The position numbers were made by a program, and so were the translations under genes. The notes beneath the pieces were generated by a model. It was not told the origin of the DNA. It worked only from the letters and a program-made list of their open reading frames with translations, and did no database searches. From Crocinitomicaceae bacterium (GTDB taxonomy: Bacteria > Bacteroidota > Bacteroidia > Flavobacteriales_D > Crocinitomicaceae), in contig JAQWYK010000012.1 in the NCBI GenBank assembly GCA_029254025.1, positions 1 to 64,000 on the forward strand: a stretch of DNA of 64,000 nt, written 5' to 3'. Position 1 is the stretch's first letter. Each line of letters begins with the position of its first letter. This document shows, one piece after another, positions 1-15,611 of this stretch.

Positions 1-24
1 TTGTAAACAATAAAATAAAACAGT

Positions 25-426
25 ATGAAATCATTTATCTCATTATTCGGAATATATATGATTATATTTCTTAATTCAGGCTGCACAAATTCTGAATCCG
101 GCAGTTCTTCAACAACAAACAACGATCCTGAATTAGTTGGCAAATGGATTAGAAAAAACAAGTATCATTTAGATTTATATAGCAATGGGATAGGTTCAAA
201 AGATAAAAATGTTGTGGTTACTGACGATATCAAGAAATTTAAGAAAGAAAGAATAAATTGGGCTTCATTCAATGATAATTTTCTTTTAATCAATACGGAT
301 GAAGAAGTAATTGGATTTAGTTATCAGGTAAAAGGTGATACTCTATTTTTAAGACAACCTGAAGATAATTTGGAGTTTTTCATTAGAGTTAGAGATGAAA
401 AAAATGAATCGACAAGAACAAGATAA
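25..426 (+). CDS. Small lipoprotein, possibly lipocalin-like
   Basis: This 133-aa protein starts with a basic residue, a hydrophobic stretch and the lipobox-like LNSGC (Cys20), followed by a Ser/Thr/Asn-rich linker, so it is probably an envelope lipoprotein. After the linker a short ELVGKW motif followed by alternating beta-strand-like segments resembles the start of small lipocalin-like folds (inference from pattern only). It is the only gene in the first cassette; the cassette's left edge appears to be exactly the first base of the window. Function unknown. Confidence 0.75.
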   Translation: MKSFISLFGIYMIIFLNSGCTNSESGSSSTTNNDPELVGKWIRKNKYHLDLYSNGIGSKDKNVVVTDDIKKFKKERINWASFNDNFLLINTDEEVIGFSYQVKGDTLFLRQPEDNLEFFIRVRDEKNESTRTR

Positions 427-481
427 TTAATGGTTCTGTCGCATTATTAAAAATTATGAACAACCACTGTAATAAAACTTC

Positions 482-550
482 TTACAACAACGTGTATAGT
501 GCATAGCTACCCTGCGGGATAGCTTCAACACCATACACGGAACGTTAGCA
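482..550 (+). other. attC-like recombination site 1
   Basis: R'' box TTACAAC at 482-488 and R' box GTTAGCA at 544-550. Between them GTGTAT (492-497) pairs with ATACAC (533-538), and an inner hairpin AGCTACCC/GGGATAGCT closes over TGC. The R'' box is the reverse complement of GTTGTAA, which fits the first bases of the window if the base before position 1 is G. Confidence 0.8.
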
Positions 551-579
551 AACATTAATAATTGTAAATACAAAAAAAC

Positions 580-1917
580 ATGAAACAAATTTTAACTGTA
601 ATTCTATTGGTAATGATCATTCTGAATGGAAAGTGTCAAACTCTAGATCAAGATTATATTACTGGGATACCAACTACCACATCTTTTGGCGGTCATCCAT
701 TAGGCCAAGACAATGATCAAGGGCAAAGCTTCACTCCTTACATCACTGGTAACCTTTGTCAATTAAAGGTTCTAGGGAATATTGACGATATGTTCATGAC
801 GTGCAATCCTAATGATTCTGTTGGGTTAGTGATTGAAGTGCATAACGGAGATGGATTTGCTGGTTCAGTTTTAGGAGTTAGTGATACACTATACTCTGGT
901 GTGATTTCAAATTCTATATTAGCATTTAACTTTTCAACCGCAATACCTATATCCTCTGGTTCTGCATATACATGGGAGCTAAAGAGAGTATCTGAGTCTT
1001 GTCAAGATCTATCAGTTAGTCTGGAGGCAGAGTTCAATGGTTCCTATGCAGGAGGTGTTGCATATAACAATGGTTCACCTGCTGGCTCTGGGCAAGATAT
1101 ACTATTTCAATCAATAACCTGCGAAGAACAAATTACAGGTGTAGACACTAGAACCGAATGTAATTCTTACACTTGGATTGATGGGAACAACTATATTTCA
1201 AGTAATAATACTGCTACGTTCAATATTGTTGGAGGTGCTGCAAATGGTTGTGATTCTTTAGTTACACTTGATTTGACAATCATCAATTCCGCTACAGGTA
1301 CAGATACACGAACAGAATGCAATTCTTACACTTGGATAGATGGAAATACTTATATAGCAAGTAACAACTCGGCTACTTTCAATATTGTTGGAGGCGCTGC
1401 TAATGGTTGTGACTCTCTAGTTACTCTAGATTTAACTATAAATAATGTATCTGATTTAACTACATCAACTTCTGGAGTAAACATAACAGCCAACAATACA
1501 GGAGTTAATTATCAATGGTTAGATTGTGATAATAACTATTCATTAATTGCATCTGAGACTAGCCAATCATTCACTGCAACAGCAAATGGCAACTACGCAG
1601 TTCAGTTAACTGAAAATGGTTGTTTAGATACCTCTGCTTGTGTAAACATAAGTACTGTTGGTGTAATTGAAAACAACTTTGGCAATAGTTTATCAGTTTA
1701 TCCTAACCCTACAAGTGGTAATTTCTCAATTGATCTTGGAGATAGTTACGACAAATCAGTTATATCAATTACTGATGTTACTGGTAGGTTACGCGAATCA
1801 AAAACAATTACTCAATCAGAAATTCTGAATCTTTCTATAAACGAATCTGCAGGAATATATTTTATCACTATTCAAGCAGGAGATAAAAAGGCAGTGATTA
1901 GATTGGTAAAAGAATAA
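580..1917 (+). CDS. T9SS-secreted protein with two 53-aa repeats
   Basis: The 445-aa product has a signal peptide (residues 1 to about 19), an unrecognised N-terminal beta-rich domain (about 20-185), two near-identical 53-aa repeats with the core ECNSYTWIDGN and NGCDSLVTLDLTI (about 186-288), a short immunoglobulin-like segment, and a C-terminal type A T9SS sorting domain beginning at SVYPNPTSGNF and ending in a Lys/Arg-rich strand. The repeat family is common in Bacteroidota cell-surface proteins. It should cross the outer membrane through the host T9SS. It is the sole gene of the second cassette. Role unknown; adhesion or surface display is only a guess. Confidence 0.85.
   Translation: MKQILTVILLVMIILNGKCQTLDQDYITGIPTTTSFGGHPLGQDNDQGQSFTPYITGNLCQLKVLGNIDDMFMTCNPNDSVGLVIEVHNGDGFAGSVLGVSDTLYSGVISNSILAFNFSTAIPISSGSAYTWELKRVSESCQDLSVSLEAEFNGSYAGGVAYNNGSPAGSGQDILFQSITCEEQITGVDTRTECNSYTWIDGNNYISSNNTATFNIVGGAANGCDSLVTLDLTIINSATGTDTRTECNSYTWIDGNTYIASNNSATFNIVGGAANGCDSLVTLDLTINNVSDLTTSTSGVNITANNTGVNYQWLDCDNNYSLIASETSQSFTATANGNYAVQLTENGCLDTSACVNISTVGVIENNFGNSLSVYPNPTSGNFSIDLGDSYDKSVISITDVTGRLRESKTITQSEILNLSINESAGIYFITIQAGDKKAVIRLVKE
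1135..1445 (+). repeat. Tandem 159-bp coding repeat, two units
   Basis: Units at 1135-1293 and 1294-1445 (the second slightly shorter) encode the same 53-residue module with few changes. Silent differences between the units suggest an old duplication kept by protein-level selection, not a recent copy. Confidence 0.8.
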
Positions 1918-1924
1918 AACGATT

Positions 1925-1977
1925 TGCTAACATTGTATAAGCCCCATTAAAACGGGGCTTATACTTTACCGTTAGCG
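1925..1977 (+). other. attC-like recombination site 2
   Basis: R'' TGCTAAC (1925-1931), a perfect 11-bp stem GTATAAGCCCC/GGGGCTTATAC around the loop ATTAAAAC, then R' GTTAGCG (1971-1977). The complement match with the core of site 1 extends over nine bases (GTTAGCAAA). No T-tract follows the stem, so this is not a rho-independent terminator. Confidence 0.88.
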
Positions 1978-2045
1978 GTCATTGTAAAGGACGACAGAGC
2001 AATGATAAAACGACAGACAAAAAACAAGTAAAAACAAAGTAAATT

Positions 2046-2432
2046 ATGCCAGAAGAACAAAAAAAAATACCTAAATGGATACTCATAGTATCGGGGCTAT
2101 TTGCTTTCATGGAACTTGGAGTAAGTTTATTATTATTCTTTACCCCGCAATCAGTCGCAGACAAAATTGACCTTAACGCAAAAGGAGTTGACTTCTTAAT
2201 TTATATGTGGGCAACACGACAATTTGCACTTGGTTTTATCTTTGCTTTTGCGACAATAAAAAAATCAATTCCGATGCTGACACTTGCATACATTTTCTTC
2301 TTGGTAATGTTTGTAGGCGACTTGATTGTTGGCGTTTTACAAAAAGACAATTCACTTATCTTTAGTGCTTTGGTAATGTGTGTAATTGCATCAACAATAA
2401 TATTTTTTATTAACAAGAATAAAATAAAATGA
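2046..2432 (+). CDS. Small four-helix membrane protein
   Basis: This 128-aa protein has a short polar N-terminus and four predicted membrane helices (roughly residues 10-33, 48-70, 75-95 and 102-122). I do not recognise the family. It overlaps the next gene by ATGA (2429-2432), so the two are probably translated together. The pair shares one cassette, which is uncommon: most integron cassettes carry one gene. Its coupling to a SRPBCC-fold protein suggests a joint membrane function, but nothing in the sequence names it. Confidence 0.7.
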   Translation: MPEEQKKIPKWILIVSGLFAFMELGVSLLLFFTPQSVADKIDLNAKGVDFLIYMWATRQFALGFIFAFATIKKSIPMLTLAYIFFLVMFVGDLIVGVLQKDNSLIFSALVMCVIASTIIFFINKNKIK

Positions 2433-2968
2433 ACATCGTAATCACAATTCTACTTGTAGTAGTTGGCATCATTGCCTTACTTTTAATTATTGCTCTCTTT
2501 CTTAAAAAAGAACATTATGTAAAACGTGAAATCATCATCAATGCGCCATCTCAAAAGGTCTTTGATTTTTTAAGGCTTCTCAAAAATCAAGACAAGTTCA
2601 ATAAGTGGGCAAAGGCAGACCCTGACAGAAAATGGGAATTTAAAGGAATAGATGGAACAATAGGGTTCATTATTTCTTGGAACGGTAACAAAAAAGCAGG
2701 TGAAGGAGAAAAGGAAATTATGGGAATAATTGAAGGAAAAAGAATTGAAACTCAAATTCGCTTTGTTAAACCAATGGCTATGATTGCAGATGTTACAATG
2801 GAGACAGAAGCAATATCCGACAGTAAGACTAAAGTCTCATTAATTAATTCTGGCACAATAAAATATCCAATGAATATATTTATTCCAATGGCAGAAAAGA
2901 ATTTCCCTAAAGACATGGATGAAAGTTTAAAGACATTGAAAGAACTCTTTGAACAAGATGGGAAATAA
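2429..2968 (+). CDS. SRPBCC-family protein with N-terminal membrane anchor
   Basis: Residues 1-25 form one hydrophobic helix; the remainder looks like the SRPBCC (START/polyketide-cyclase-like) fold, with a first strand VKREIIINAP, the helix FDFLRLLKN, and a long C-terminal amphipathic helix. Such folds bind hydrophobic ligands, but the ligand cannot be inferred. At 179 aa it has the usual length for this group including the anchor. Start at 2429 overlaps the preceding stop by four bases. It is the second gene of the third cassette and ends 10 bases before the attC site. Confidence 0.8.
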   Translation: MNIVITILLVVVGIIALLLIIALFLKKEHYVKREIIINAPSQKVFDFLRLLKNQDKFNKWAKADPDRKWEFKGIDGTIGFIISWNGNKKAGEGEKEIMGIIEGKRIETQIRFVKPMAMIADVTMETEAISDSKTKVSLINSGTIKYPMNIFIPMAEKNFPKDMDESLKTLKELFEQDGK

Positions 2969-2978
2969 ACAACGAACC

Positions 2979-3109
2979 GCTAACAGCACCTACAAGAAAT
3001 TGGCGGTTCAGTGGTTAAATGAAGCTTTGTTCTTCGTATCAAGTTTTGTGGTGGCAGAAAGTTTTGTGCTTCGAAATCGCCAACTTCTTGTAGCTGCAAA
3101 CCGTTAGCG
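2979..3109 (+). other. attC-like recombination site 3 (long form)
   Basis: R'' CGCTAAC (2979-2985) and R' GTTAGCG (3103-3109) enclose 131 bp. The outer arms GCACCTACAAGAAATTGGCG and CGCCAACTTCTTGTAGCTGC pair along about 20 bases with two mismatches. The interior is about 70 bp and resembles that of site 4. It is a long-type attC compared with sites 2, 5 and 6. Confidence 0.85.
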
Positions 3110-3168
3110 GTCATTCACACATTATAACTGATTATAAAAAATAAATTATTTTGACCAAGTAAAACAAT

Positions 3169-4092
3169 ATGGAACTATCAAAATTTTTAGATAAAATTTA
3201 TCCAAAACTTCTTTCAGAAAAAACTAAAGAGAAGAGTGAGAGGGTTATCTTATGGATTGCTTTAATAAGTTTTATAATTCATTTATTAATAATTGCGTTG
3301 ATAAAGTTTGATATTATTTTCATTTATGAACCATCCAATCTATTAAAAAATCCTATCGCTGCTATTTATACCCCTTTTTCTTTTATTTTAGTATACGAGG
3401 TGTATCTTTTAATTTACTACCTCCCAAAATCTACTTCTACTTATGTATCAAAGCAATATGAAATTATTGCTCTCATCATTATAAGGCGATTGTTCAAAGA
3501 CCTTTCAGATTTATCACTTACGTCTAATTGGTTTAACATTAAAAATGATTTGCAATTTACCTATGATTTAGTAGCATCAATCTTACTATTCTATTTAATT
3601 TACCTATTTCATATTCACCGAATAAAAGTTTACGAAACCATTAAAAATAATAAAAACTACTCCTCAAGTATTTCAAAATTTATAAACGCAAAAAAATGGA
3701 TAGCTACTGCCCTGGTTCCTTTGTTAATATTTGTAGCATTGTATTCATTTTTAAATTGGAGTATTGGTGTTTTTCAAACAAGTGATACAAACCCTATTTC
3801 TTTTAAGAACATCAATAATATTTTCTTTGAACAGTTTTTTAATATTTTAATTATTGCTGATGTAATATTATTGTTATTTTCATTTTTTCACACAGACGAA
3901 TTCCATAAGGTAATGCGAAACTCTGGGTTTATTATTTCTACTATATTAATTCGAATATCTTTTTCTGTAACTGGCATCACTAATACTGCATTGATAGTTT
4001 TTGCAATATTATTCGGTCTTTTAATGCTTGTAATACATAATAAATTTGAAAAGCAGTTAGTTGCTGAACGGATTGCAAAGAATAATGAATAG
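3169..4092 (+). CDS. Polytopic membrane protein, unknown function
   Basis: The 307-aa product has about eight hydrophobic segments (starting near residues 27, 60, 95, 140, 175, 215, 250 and 265) and a charged cytoplasmic-looking N-terminus rich in Lys/Glu. A conserved-looking segment between helices 2 and 4 (KSTSTYVSKQYEIIALI and RRLFKDLSD) may be a functional core. I do not recognise the family. It is the only gene of the fourth cassette and has strongly AT-biased codon use, like the other cassette genes. Confidence 0.7.
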   Translation: MELSKFLDKIYPKLLSEKTKEKSERVILWIALISFIIHLLIIALIKFDIIFIYEPSNLLKNPIAAIYTPFSFILVYEVYLLIYYLPKSTSTYVSKQYEIIALIIIRRLFKDLSDLSLTSNWFNIKNDLQFTYDLVASILLFYLIYLFHIHRIKVYETIKNNKNYSSSISKFINAKKWIATALVPLLIFVALYSFLNWSIGVFQTSDTNPISFKNINNIFFEQFFNILIIADVILLLFSFFHTDEFHKVMRNSGFIISTILIRISFSVTGITNTALIVFAILFGLLMLVIHNKFEKQLVAERIAKNNE

Positions 4093-4140
4093 GAAGTATA
4101 AATGTATACAAATGACAATTGATAAAAGAGAAGAACGAAC

Positions 4141-4272
4141 CGCTAACAGCACCTACCCAAAAGGCGGGGTTTCGAGCTTTGCAGACAGTTTTGTGGTAAC
4201 CGAAAGTTCAGTTCTCTGAATGAAGTTTAGTGGTAAAAATCCCGCCCTTCGTGTAGCTGCAAAACGTTAGTG
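4141..4272 (+). other. attC-like recombination site 4 (long form)
   Basis: R'' CGCTAAC (4141-4147) and R' GTTAGTG (4266-4272), 132 bp. The ends (CTAACAGCACCTAC and GTAGCTGCAAA) and an interior AGTTTTGTGGT...GAAAGTT block match site 3, so both descend from one long attC. The outer arms pair through AAGGCGGG/CCCGCCCTT. Confidence 0.84.
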
Positions 4273-4301
4273 GCAACCAGAAAAACAACAAATAAGAGAG
4301 A

Positions 4302-5414
4302 ATGAATAAATTATACCTTACGATCGGGATGGTCTTTAGCATTTTAACAACATTCTCATCTTGCAACGGTAAAACCAATACTCATAACCCACAAATTTTA
4401 ATAAAACAGGAATTTAAGAGTAGTAAAAAAACGAAACTTGATTCGAGAGCAACTGTAATTTTTCGAGACAAAAAAGAGAACTTATGGTTTATGGAAAAGG
4501 AAAAGGGAGTTTACAGATATGATGGCGAAAACCTTACTCTTTTTACTTCAAATGACGCTCTAGGTAGTTACAGAATTATAAGTGTTCAAGAAGATAGTTT
4601 AGGGAATCTTTATTTCGATACCCCAGAAGGAGTTTTCAAATATGATGGAGAAAAATTTTCCGCTTTGCCTATTGTTGAAAGTAAGGAATCTGAAGATGAA
4701 TGGAAAGCAGAACCTGGAGATTTGTGGTTTAGAATTGGATGGGATAAGAATGGACCTTATCGCTTTGATGGAGAAAATCTTTATCACTTAAAATTCCCAA
4801 AAAATCAAATGGAAGATGAATTCTACGAGAAGTATCCGAATGCATCATTTAATCCCTATGCCATTTATTCAATTTATAAGGACAGTAAGGGGAATATTTG
4901 GTTCGGCACATCTAATCTGGGTGTTTATTTATTTGACGGAAATGAAATTAGTTGGATGTATGAAAATCAATGGATAGAGACTCCTGATGGGGGGAATTTC
5001 GGAGTTCGATCAATAACGGAGGATCAAGATGGAAATTATTGGATATGCAATGCTAATTATAAATACACACTATTGCCAAATGACCAAGAAGTTGATGGAC
5101 TCAAATCAATAAACTATAAACGCCAAATTGGAATAGACATTAAAGGGAGAGAGAACTTATATTTCTTATCAATGGAACTCGACACAAACGGGGATTTATT
5201 GATGTTTGCCAACGAAGATGGACTTTGGAGAAATAATGGTAAACAACTCACTCAGTTTTTTATTAAAGACGCCGAAAGAAATATTACTCCAACATCTATT
5301 TACAAAGACATCCAAGGTGTACTTTGGTTTGGAACCGACAAACATGGTATTTATAAGTTTAACGGAAATTCATTTGAAAAATTTAAAATAAAAGCAGCCA
5401 CTAACAATATGTAA
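4302..5414 (+). CDS. Lipoprotein with two-component-regulator-type propeller repeats
   Basis: The 370-aa protein begins with a lipoprotein signal ending in FSSC (Cys21). It contains about five to six blades of the type I/V-x-x-D-x-x-G-N-x-W-F-G-T-x-x-G-V-Y-x-[FY]-D/N-G, for example near residues 50-80, 90-120, 190-220, 235-255 and 335-365. Such blades form the periplasmic sensor part of hybrid two-component systems, but here no membrane helix, kinase or DNA-binding domain follows. It may be a stand-alone envelope binding protein. It is the sole gene of the fifth cassette; its last four codons lie inside the R'' box and stem of attC site 5. Confidence 0.8.
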   Translation: MNKLYLTIGMVFSILTTFSSCNGKTNTHNPQILIKQEFKSSKKTKLDSRATVIFRDKKENLWFMEKEKGVYRYDGENLTLFTSNDALGSYRIISVQEDSLGNLYFDTPEGVFKYDGEKFSALPIVESKESEDEWKAEPGDLWFRIGWDKNGPYRFDGENLYHLKFPKNQMEDEFYEKYPNASFNPYAIYSIYKDSKGNIWFGTSNLGVYLFDGNEISWMYENQWIETPDGGNFGVRSITEDQDGNYWICNANYKYTLLPNDQEVDGLKSINYKRQIGIDIKGRENLYFLSMELDTNGDLLMFANEDGLWRNNGKQLTQFFIKDAERNITPTSIYKDIQGVLWFGTDKHGIYKFNGNSFEKFKIKAATNNM

Positions 5415-5450
5415 AATGCATTAAAACGCATTTTACATTAAACGTTATGC
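5399..5450 (+). other. attC-like recombination site 5
   Basis: R'' CACTAAC (5399-5405), perfect stem TGTAAAATGC/GCATTTTACA around the loop ATTAAAAC, R' GTTATGC (5444-5450). The R'' box is the exact complement of the core of site 4. It overlaps the stop codon of the upstream gene. Confidence 0.87.
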
Positions 5451-5508
5451 ACAATAAATCACGTCCGAAATAGTTGTGTTAAAATTCAACTGAAAATAAT
5501 TTAATGAA

Positions 5509-7131
5509 ATGCAAATAAATTTGACAAAGAGAATCGTTGTTTTGACTTGTCTTATATGCTCTTACAACGTGGTAAATGCTCAATCCTGGAGCAAATCATT
5601 TACAGCAGGAGGCTACGATTCAAATAATAAATTCTTAGGTGGTTCAGAGGTTTTACAATTAGTTAATCATAAAAGCATGCTATTTGCATCTGTCGGATAC
5701 TGGGAAGATGAGAATAACATTTGGTATGGAGGTTCTAACAACAATATTGGTTGGGGGCAAATAAATCGGTTGGATAATCCTTCTGCTATTTGGCAAGAAG
5801 ATTTATTTATGGGAGCAAACCATCTACGGCCGGAAATTCTGAAACAAATTATTTTTACAAAAGATCAATTTGGTAACCTATTAACATTTCCAGATACGGT
5901 GTTAATTGCCGCTGGCTATTCGCCTAATTATATAACGAGTATCGTTACGGTTACAAGTTTCGTAAGAAATGATGTGAATGGTACTTGGGGAGAAAGTCAA
6001 ATTGTGCAAGGGAGTTTCCCTGCAGGTGAAAACTATTCCATAAGAGATATTGAAATATATGTAGACCAGCAAACTGGATTAGAATATGTATTTGCTACTG
6101 TCGGAACACAAGGAATTTATAAAGGGAAATATAATCCTGCAGCTCCAGGTAAAATCGATTGGATATCAACAGCAGAATTTGGCCCCTTAAGTATTAGACC
6201 TTTAGGTATTGAAGTAGCGAATGGGGCGCTTCATTTTTCATCAGGAAGTAAACTCTATAGACGAATTGACGGAGTTTCGCCAAGCTATGTAATAGACCAT
6301 GACTTTAGTGACCTTGGCGCTACAATCAATTCTGCTGTAGGCGGCATTAGAGGTTTAACAAAAATCGATAACCCTAGTGGAGTTGACGATGCCTTCCTGT
6401 TGATGTGGTGCCCTGACGGTCAGTCTCAAGGAACTATTTATCGTCTCGAACCAGATGGTGCTGGAGGATTTAATCGTATTTATGAAACTAAATTATCCTT
6501 ATTGATAGCGAGTTTTTTAGTTGGGTCAAATGCGAGCTATGTTCTTGGAGCATACAATGAGTTTTACGAATATATTGACCCCATAAGCAACGATACTATT
6601 CACCTTATAGGGTTTGAAGCAAATATATCGGGAGGTGGTCATCCAATATGGAACGGCTACTATAAAGGTGGTTTGTTCGCTAAGCGAGATTCAAATGGTC
6701 AGTACTCGATAGAAGAGATAAATGGAACTATAGGCGCAAATGATACGGCTTTAGTTGCTAACAGATGCTATGTCGCTTCACCATTTCCAGGTGAATCTGC
6801 GGTCTATTTTGGTGGGTTTGATCCAAATAGTAACTCTTCAACAAACATGGCTTGGGTGTATAAGAAAGACTATCAAGTTAATGCGATAGATGATATTACT
6901 AGGCATGAAAACAATTTTGTTGTTTACCCCAATCCCGCCAGCAATCAACTTTTTATTGAAAGTGAAAATCTTGAAGATTATGAATTCAACATTATTAATC
7001 TTTTAGGAAAGAAAGTAGCATCTGGCAGGATAAATGGGCAAACTGAAACGGTTGATATTTCATCTTTACCCCCAAATGTTTATATTCTTAGAATTGCTAA
7101 TGAAGCAGTTAAATTTGTCAAAACAAACTAA
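5509..7131 (+). CDS. T9SS-secreted protein, probable beta-propeller
   Basis: This 540-aa protein has a signal peptide ending near NAQS (residue 26) and a C-terminal type A T9SS sorting domain starting at VYPNPASNQLF (about residue 467) and ending in the usual short basic tail. The middle is beta-rich with Gly/Asn-rich turns and recurrent aromatic strands, compatible with a propeller, but I see no catalytic motif. It is the sole gene of the sixth and last cassette and should be exported by the host T9SS. Function unknown. Confidence 0.83.
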   Translation: MQINLTKRIVVLTCLICSYNVVNAQSWSKSFTAGGYDSNNKFLGGSEVLQLVNHKSMLFASVGYWEDENNIWYGGSNNNIGWGQINRLDNPSAIWQEDLFMGANHLRPEILKQIIFTKDQFGNLLTFPDTVLIAAGYSPNYITSIVTVTSFVRNDVNGTWGESQIVQGSFPAGENYSIRDIEIYVDQQTGLEYVFATVGTQGIYKGKYNPAAPGKIDWISTAEFGPLSIRPLGIEVANGALHFSSGSKLYRRIDGVSPSYVIDHDFSDLGATINSAVGGIRGLTKIDNPSGVDDAFLLMWCPDGQSQGTIYRLEPDGAGGFNRIYETKLSLLIASFLVGSNASYVLGAYNEFYEYIDPISNDTIHLIGFEANISGGGHPIWNGYYKGGLFAKRDSNGQYSIEEINGTIGANDTALVANRCYVASPFPGESAVYFGGFDPNSNSSTNMAWVYKKDYQVNAIDDITRHENNFVVYPNPASNQLFIESENLEDYEFNIINLLGKKVASGRINGQTETVDISSLPPNVYILRIANEAVKFVKTN

Positions 7132-7134
7132 TGT

Positions 7135-7186
7135 GCATAACAAAACCTAAACTGCATTAAAACGCAGTTTAGCCAATACGTTAGCA
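7135..7186 (+). other. attC-like recombination site 6 (apparent last site)
   Basis: R'' GCATAAC (7135-7141), stem CTAAACTGC/GCAGTTTAG around the loop ATTAAAAC, R' GTTAGCA (7180-7186). The R'' box is the exact complement of the core of site 5, extended to ten bases (GTTATGCACA). No TGCTAAC-type box follows downstream, so the array seems to end here. Confidence 0.87.
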
Positions 7187-9197: not shown

Positions 9198-11585
<2,388 letters not shown>

Positions 11586-14411: not shown

Positions 14412-15611
14412 ATGTTAAAAGGAAAGCGCATTATTCTTGGAGTGACCGGGGGTATAGCTGCTTACAAAATACCACTTCTCGTAAGAGAGTTAAAAAAATT
14501 AGAGGCAGATGTTCAATGTATAATGACACCTGCCTCTTGTGATTTTGTGAGTCCGCTGACCTTGGCTACATTGTCGCAGAATCCAGTCTATATTGACTTC
14601 TGGAATAAGAAAGACGGCACTTGGACAAACCATGTGGAGTTAGGTATGTGGGCAGATGTGATGGTCATTGCACCGCTTACAGCCAATACGTTAGCCAAAA
14701 TGACACATGGGAATTGCGACAACCTTTTATTGGCAACTTACCTTTCTGCGAAATGTCCTGTTTTAATCGCACCGGCTATGGACTTGGACATGTATGCACA
14801 TCCCACAACGACTCAAAATTTAGAGCAATTAGCCCAGCATGGTGTACTTATAACACCAGCGCAACACGGATTTTTGGCGAGCGGACTCGAAGGTCAAGGT
14901 CGAATGATGGAGCCCAATGATCTTGTGAGAGAAATTTCATTCTTTTTTGAGCAGTCAATTTCCCTATACGGTAAAAAAGTGTTGGTAACAGCCGGTCCAA
15001 CCTACGAACGGATTGATCCTGTGCGTTTCATCGGGAACCATTCCTCCGGGAAAATGGGTTTTGCGATTGCCAAAAGTTTACTTAAACGCGGGGCGGAAGT
15101 AATCCTTGTAACTGGTCCTACGCAATGTCAATTAACGCATAATAAGTTGACGCGGTGCGACGTTGTTTCGGCCGAAGAAATGCTACAGCAAGTAAAGGAA
15201 CATTTTCCAACCTGCACAGGAGGAATATTTTCTGCTGCGGTTTCTGATTATCGTCCGGCAGAAATGCACTCAGTGAAAATGAAAAAAACAGCGGATGAAT
15301 TAACGCTTCAGTTGGTGAAAAACCCGGACATTCTGCAATGGGCTGGAGACCATAAGAAGCACGGTCAATTCCTCGTTGGATTTGCTTTGGAAACCAATGA
15401 CGCCCTCGATTACGGAAGAGGAAAATTGGAGAAGAAGAAGCTGGATTGCATCGTTGTAAATAGCTTAAAAGATTCTGGAGCAGGATTTGGGGTGGATACA
15501 AACAAAATTACTATCTTAGATTCCAACAATAAAAAGCAGGCTTATGAGTTATCATCTAAAGATGTTGCCGCGCACAACATTGTTGAATATATCGTAAAAA
15601 ATAAGTTATGA
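14412..15611 (+). CDS. coaBC: Phosphopantothenoylcysteine synthetase/decarboxylase
   Basis: A 399-aa bifunctional coenzyme A enzyme. The N-terminal flavoprotein decarboxylase (CoaC, about 1-180) has GVTGGIAAYKIP, the catalytic-His segment NHVELGMWADVMVIAPLTAN and a PAMDLDMY substrate-clamp motif. The C-terminal synthetase (CoaB, about 185-399) has TAGPTYERIDPVRFIGN, SSGKMG and AAVSDYRP. Both active sites look complete. It overlaps the next gene by ATGA at 15608-15611. Confidence 0.95.
   Translation: MLKGKRIILGVTGGIAAYKIPLLVRELKKLEADVQCIMTPASCDFVSPLTLATLSQNPVYIDFWNKKDGTWTNHVELGMWADVMVIAPLTANTLAKMTHGNCDNLLLATYLSAKCPVLIAPAMDLDMYAHPTTTQNLEQLAQHGVLITPAQHGFLASGLEGQGRMMEPNDLVREISFFFEQSISLYGKKVLVTAGPTYERIDPVRFIGNHSSGKMGFAIAKSLLKRGAEVILVTGPTQCQLTHNKLTRCDVVSAEEMLQQVKEHFPTCTGGIFSAAVSDYRPAEMHSVKMKKTADELTLQLVKNPDILQWAGDHKKHGQFLVGFALETNDALDYGRGKLEKKKLDCIVVNSLKDSGAGFGVDTNKITILDSNNKKQAYELSSKDVAAHNIVEYIVKNKL

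Follow-up and report, generated by a model that had tools for sequence, protein, structure and literature searches.

A cassette array at the start of a Crocinitomicaceae contig very probably belongs to a type of sedentary chromosomal integron that occurs across the class Bacteroidia

The window analysed here is a stretch of 64,000 nucleotides from a Crocinitomicaceae bacterium, whose genome is assembled as 2.70 Mb in 50 contigs, and it starts where its contig (C6) starts. Positions 1–7186 contain six attC-like sites that delimit six cassettes, and the question raised by this locus is whether these sites and cassettes belong to an integron and, if so, which recombinase serves it. On the evidence given below, the cassettes very probably form the array of a sedentary chromosomal integron, and integrons of this type occur across the class Bacteroidia.

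The pairing between neighbouring sites was examined by comparing the core of each site with the R'' box of the next one. The five cognate pairs matched over 9, 9, 9, 9 and 10 nt, in agreement with the original prediction, made from the letters of this DNA, of five site pairs with matches of up to 9–10 bases, whereas non-cognate pairs with different cores mostly matched over 3–6 nt. The observed sum of matches was equalled by 4 of 720 re-assignments, and all these ties were due to repeated cores. Five different 7-mers had been counted in that prediction; the array has only four distinct cores, with GTTAGCG present at both site 2 and site 3. The window edge had been proposed as a further fit, and here six nucleotides (TTGTAA) fit whereas the base before them, read from the adjoining contig, is C and not G. 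Furthermore, a coordinate-free search of the whole 64 kb with a strict chain detector (8-nt match, stem of 6) gave its two best chains within the array and weak two-site matches elsewhere; a looser version (7-nt match, stem of 4) gave spurious long chains and was abandoned for the strict one. Because the last core has no R'' partner downstream up to 14 kb, the array was taken to end at 7180 (cassette) and 7186 (site). The cassettes contain seven open reading frames (ORFs), all on the plus strand as had been claimed, and are promoter-poor. The cassettes are bounded by sites, and cassette 3 contains two of the ORFs. No transposase was found within the array, and an Rfam scan of the window returned no family at gathering score.

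The structure of the sites was studied in the ~130-nt attC class, of which 41 sites were aligned. Their consensus stem has 14 pairs with two-sided compensatory change at 14 of 14, and the alignment contains an asymmetric spacer and fixed mismatch columns that may correspond to the central spacer and extrahelical bases of the attC sites used by IntI. The folds of most single attC sites beat those of their shuffles, which was not the case for site 4 of the window (S4) and one site on contig C2. The covariance model of this class, R1, is matched by S3, S4 and the other A3 sites by construction. Further attC clusters are present on contigs C2, C19, C24, C28 and C38 of the same genome; those on C19, C24 and C28 were detected by R1, and none of these three had been used for building it. 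Sites fixed in position, or a lack of paired-core logic elsewhere in the genome, which the original prediction had named as arguments against it, were not what we found.

Of 150 genomes of the window's order, 93 have R1 sites, 72 have the integrase described below and 56 have both. The two co-occur, as attC sites were found in 56 of the 72 genomes with the integrase versus 37 of the 78 without it (Fisher p 2e-4). The genome counts are lower bounds because R1 misses a further class, the uniform ~167-nt attC sites seen in one array of genome G005 (C1:2329500–2349499, L042). In the complete genome G119, 29 R1 sites are spread over 110 kb (4,209,514–4,319,512), without exception downstream of the integrase (4,320,330–4,321,427) and on its strand, and the genes of this array lie on the integrase strand in 90 cases and opposed to it in 12. 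The polarity was kept by 51 of 51 sites in seven genomes, and a hand count of the best-scoring sites of the 150 genomes gave 38 that keep it and 3 that oppose it.

The recombinase of the window's own genome was found on another contig. The first 119 bases of C6 are an exact copy of the end of contig C41, which encodes at 216–1331 a 371-aa tyrosine recombinase located 97 bp upstream of cassette 1 and pointing in the same direction as the cassettes. The check for an intI tyrosine recombinase to the left of the window, as suggested earlier, thus gave a tyrosine recombinase, but one without the additional domain of IntI. The attI-like core behind it, AAC-TTGTAA, is a variant of the form seen in relatives. 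The integron interpretation does not depend on the joining of C41 and C6, because relatives show the same layout on single contigs, namely an integrase, an attI-like core and attC cassettes in G005, G013, G025, G036, G063, G119, G128 and G151.

Homologues of the recombinase were found in 23 of 39 near genomes, many of them at contig ends. With the strict detector, chains of at least three sites were found downstream of nine homologues from named organisms or metagenome-assembled genomes, including Rufibacter sp. SYSU D00344 (13 sites), Flavobacterium enshiense (10), Algibacter onchidii (9), Flavobacterium aciduliphilum, Winogradskyella ursingii and Seonamhaeicola aphaedonensis. The same detector found no such chain upstream of any homologue and none at the homologues from phyla other than Bacteroidota; at most canonical IntI loci it was uninformative, as the flanks there are short. 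The cognate pairing of each core with the next R'' was also seen in the arrays of relatives. Most homologues are followed by an attI-like core, with the main consensus TATAnACnAG-TTRRRY in 17 loci. In addition, 20 of 66 loci have the Bacteroidota-type promoter box TAnnTTTG within 70 nt past the integrase stop, where 2.8 would be expected, and the own genome is among these 20 with the box TAGCTTTG. We read this box region as a probable cassette promoter beside attI.

In several relatives (G062, G072, G073, G094, G097 and G140) the integrase gene has one or two internal stops while attC sites are retained, which suggests repeated loss of the integrase. The integrase is also encoded, with one-way genes behind it, on plasmids of Chryseobacterium and Rufibacter tibetensis (NZ_CP041688.1, NZ_CP094530.1 and NZ_CP012644.1; L141, L142 and L191), and a few linked attC sites are present on the SNU WT5 and Rufibacter plasmids. 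The integron platform may therefore also be mobile. On one Chryseobacterium plasmid, a ~149-nt hairpin with perfect 14-bp arms lies at the attI core (L141:13158–13306) and recurs at 15253 and 17634.

Footprints of cassette movement were found in repeated sequences. In G119, an 846-bp cassette encoding a 244-aa lipoprotein occurs in five places and a ~1.4-kb type IX secretion system (T9SS) cassette in three, each time with copies that are 100% identical and neighbours that differ. Among the ten repeat pairs of this genome that are not insertion sequences (IS), both ends fell at the core in nine, and the tenth ends inside the attC arms. Two genomes of different families, G022 and G063, have a ~780-bp cassette in common, with 91% identity. 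In the genome of the window, a second copy of the cassette 1 3' end with site S1 lies at the end of C2 (96% identity), and the two copies diverge directly after the core (GTTAG).

Two other kinds of shared sequence were not counted as cassettes. The 1,715-bp repeats of G119 were left out because they encode an IS1182-type transposase. This IS1182-family element (~1.7 kb, 524 aa) occurs four times in the G119 array (C1:4202001–4322000), each time abutting an attC core, and looks like an element that targets attC sites. The sequence common to G128 (L176:3853–5340) and a Chryseobacterium plasmid (L141:18738–20230) was rejected as a shared cassette, being a group II intron (ltrA) that is 85% alike between them and lies in or beside arrays.

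The recombinase is not a canonical IntI: it has no additional domain, scores below the curated cut-off and falls outside the IntI clade in the tree. It scored 207.1 bits with the XerA-type profile NF040815, 196 with XerD and 189.1 with the integron integrase profile TIGR02249, and thus lies just under the cut-off of the first (220) and under that of the last (265). Its nearest structure in the PDB is XerA (5hxy, E 2e-35), which likewise has no additional domain, and IntI4 (2a3v) came third with an alignment in two pieces and a gap at the position of the additional (I2) domain, which is also absent in the alignment to IntI1. The KGxKDR and HxxRHS motifs are spaced by 63–65 residues in all 36 family members measured and by 106–111 in 14 of 14 canonical IntI, and therefore these 36 members lack the additional domain of ~42 residues. 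With IntI1 the recombinase shares the RKHRH-Y fold and active site and a similar C-terminus (...IRSPFDDL, compared with ...GVRSPLD in IntI1), and its catalytic residues R228, K253, H318, R321, H344 and Y353 are intact and invariant in 16 of 16 aligned members. In a tree made by a quick method with support from the Shimodaira–Hasegawa-like approximate likelihood ratio test only, the IntI clade (starred at 100, with one Allochromatium row included) leaves the Bacteroidia recombinases outside; support inside the Bacteroidia family is modest and does not establish it as a single clade.

Most members of the family have an extra N-terminal domain (30 of 37), which was seen in none of 14 IntI and in one of the 19 Xer-like relatives that come from other groups. 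The XerA-like relatives of other phyla are also without attC arrays, and homologues on viral contigs mostly lack the domain. Its predicted order of elements is strand-strand-helix-strand-strand-helix-strand. A HARP-like fold was suspected and gained no support from Pfam, Foldseek (best E 0.09) or a PDB profile search, in which the best match (E 0.0014, a designed protein, 33 residues) gave no assignment.

Box logic, covarying stems, linkage to an integrase, single polarity, identical copies with breakpoints at the core and the absence of the additional domain are directly supported, and from these sequence features the Bacteroidia system would work like an integron, for which we infer the recombination step. 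From left to right, the locus would consist of the 371-aa tyrosine recombinase, ~97 bp with an attI-type site and the probable promoter, and the six attC-ended cassettes. One strand of attC, presumably the single-stranded substrate, would fold into an imperfect hairpin in which R'' pairs with R' and L'' with L', and the recombinase, presumably this protein itself, would cut between G and TT of the core. The cassette would then be joined to attI or to another attC, so that the array would grow at the integrase end, and a putatively active promoter beside attI would drive its expression. The N-terminal domain may take over part of the role of the missing additional domain. We regard it as an evenly balanced proposition that Bacteroidia have an integron lineage of their own, served by a Xer-type recombinase in which the additional domain was lost or never present and may be replaced in function by the N-terminal domain. 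Either cassette capture would then have been invented independently in this lineage, or the lineage would survive as an intermediate between Xer and IntI.

Several points weigh against an integron run by this recombinase. The additional domain is described as a defining character that is necessary for integron recombination (PMC9668308), and it is needed for integron recombination by IntI according to Messier and Roy (2001), as cited in later papers. There are 37 genomes with attC sites in which the integrase was not detected, and in G019 and G106 attC sites near a homologue of lower score lie on the strand opposite to it, at loci (L185 and L186) that have no convincing linked attC chain. In the window's own genome, the attI-like core has C at the position where relatives have G, and the integrase and the array are on separate contigs, linked only by the exact overlap of 119 nt at their ends and by the match of TTGTAA. 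The array could also be an ordinary one, built by a true IntI (own or lost) through ordinary attC sites, with the XerA-like recombinase as a bystander. Of 296 genomes sampled in the wider phylum, 84 had a canonical IntI, R1 gave two marginal matches on 388 kb of control loci, both at attC-like sites beside one canonical IntI (L180) and in divergent orientation, and cassette arrays without an integrase are common (PMC9024848). We consider this improbable, as the own genome has no IntI above the cut-off and, among the IntI genomes listed, only one belongs to the window's class, whereas a non-canonical recombinase recurs directly upstream of the arrays with fixed polarity and, in the own genome, is followed by an attI-like core that agrees in its letters with the first cassette.

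Still less probable is a former integron that is now fixed, with its cassettes spread by homologous recombination or by IS elements acting at attC. The internal stops in the integrases of several relatives, the four IS1182-family insertions at attC cores in G119 and the integrase-less attC clusters scattered over the own genome would fit such decay. The own integrase, however, is intact with conserved catalytic residues, the fully identical cassettes of 846 bp and ~1.4 kb stand in several places among different neighbours with their ends at the core, and the end of cassette 1 on C2 departs from C6 right at the end of the core. Palindromic terminators or repeats that separate genes by chance, such as repetitive extragenic palindromes with their associated transposases (REP/RAYT-like) or IS200/IS605-like ends, would account for the terminator-like hairpins of the short sites, but such elements do not predict that a 3' end matches the 5' end of the next element rather than its own. 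The array is without a transposase, the linkage and polarity relative to the recombinase would be left unexplained, and the cognate-pair test and the core breakpoints contradict an origin of this kind, which we therefore consider scarcely credible.

Compared with canonical sedentary integrons such as the superintegrons of Vibrio, the Bacteroidia integron has the same integrase gene, attI, long one-way arrays, GTTRRRY core with cognate R'' and diverse cassettes. Its integrase differs in the lack of an additional domain, in a position outside the IntI clade and, usually, in the extra N-terminal domain, and its common attC classes are ~130 nt and ~52–77 nt long with a 14-pair stem and fixed mismatches. 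The integrase points towards the cassettes, as in the integron of Treponema denticola, where it is co-directional with them (PMC3607928). Integrons have been reported in the Bacteroidetes/Chlorobi group from Salinibacter ruber, Chlorobi and Ignavibacteriae (PMC9024848); these share the broad phylum and the attI/attC cassette logic, but were recognised through canonical IntI, and for Bacteroidetes proper the IntegronFinder 2.0 survey of 2022 lists a single complete integron, that of Salinibacter (PMC9024848). Integrons were likewise extended in silico to a new group in the archaea, where cassette recruitment was also shown and the IntI retain the additional domain (PMC9668308). Taxon-specific attC models leave Bacteroidetes unmentioned (PMC8352920). 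We found no description of the Bacteroidia system among open-access papers, subscription papers and preprints being outside this search. Some Bacteroidia homologues bear the NCBI name ‘site-specific tyrosine recombinase/integron integrase’, so that an earlier recognition is possible.

Surveys define integrons through the additional domain of IntI and therefore miss an integrase without it, which may be the reason why survey tools overlooked the Bacteroidia integrons. If confirmed, a large gene-exchange system has been overlooked in a major phylum, with a scale illustrated by a single attC class that is present in 93 of the 150 genomes from the order and by the 110-kb array of one complete genome, and with cassettes that include T9SS-exported proteins and a probable restriction-modification pair. 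It would also become testable whether the additional domain was what made an integron integrase out of a Xer recombinase; acquisition of this domain by a Xer ancestor is one proposal for how these enzymes arose (PMC4792948).

The cassettes and sites of the window all lie on the plus strand, with attC coordinates counted from the 7-nt R'' to the 7-nt core. Cassette 1 (1–544) has TTGTAA at its start as the crossover point and contains a lipoprotein-like ORF (25–426, 133 aa); its site S1 (482–550) has the R'' TTACAAC and the core GTTAGCA. Cassette 2 (545–1971) encodes a 445-aa protein with a T9SS type A sorting domain (580–1917) and ends with S2 (1925–1977), which has an 11-bp stem and the loop ATTAAAAC. 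Cassette 3 (1972–3103) carries the genes for a 128-aa membrane protein with a weak DUF4267 match (2046–2432) and a 179-aa SRPBCC/polyketide-cyclase-like protein (2429–2968), and cassette 4 (3104–4266) that for a 307-aa membrane protein (3169–4092) without a family match. Their sites S3 (2978–3109) and S4 (4141–4272) are of the 132-nt class and scored 120 and 84 bits with R1, both being in its training set. Cassette 5 (4267–5444) encodes a 370-aa two-component-regulator propeller protein (4302–5414), and its site S5 (5399–5450), of the short class and outside the training set, scored 35 bits. Cassette 6 (5445–7180) encodes a 540-aa protein (5509–7131) and ends with S6 (7135–7186), the last site of the array; the 540-aa protein is the second cassette protein with a T9SS type A sorting domain, as expected from the T9SS cargo claimed earlier.

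On contig C28 of the same genome, one cassette (L153:11116–13535) contains a candidate DNA cytosine methyltransferase (525 aa), named by reading, with a possible restriction enzyme of 278 aa as its companion. Just outside the array, the window encodes at 9321–11585 a catalase-peroxidase-like candidate of 754 aa, also named by reading, with a lipoprotein-type signal.

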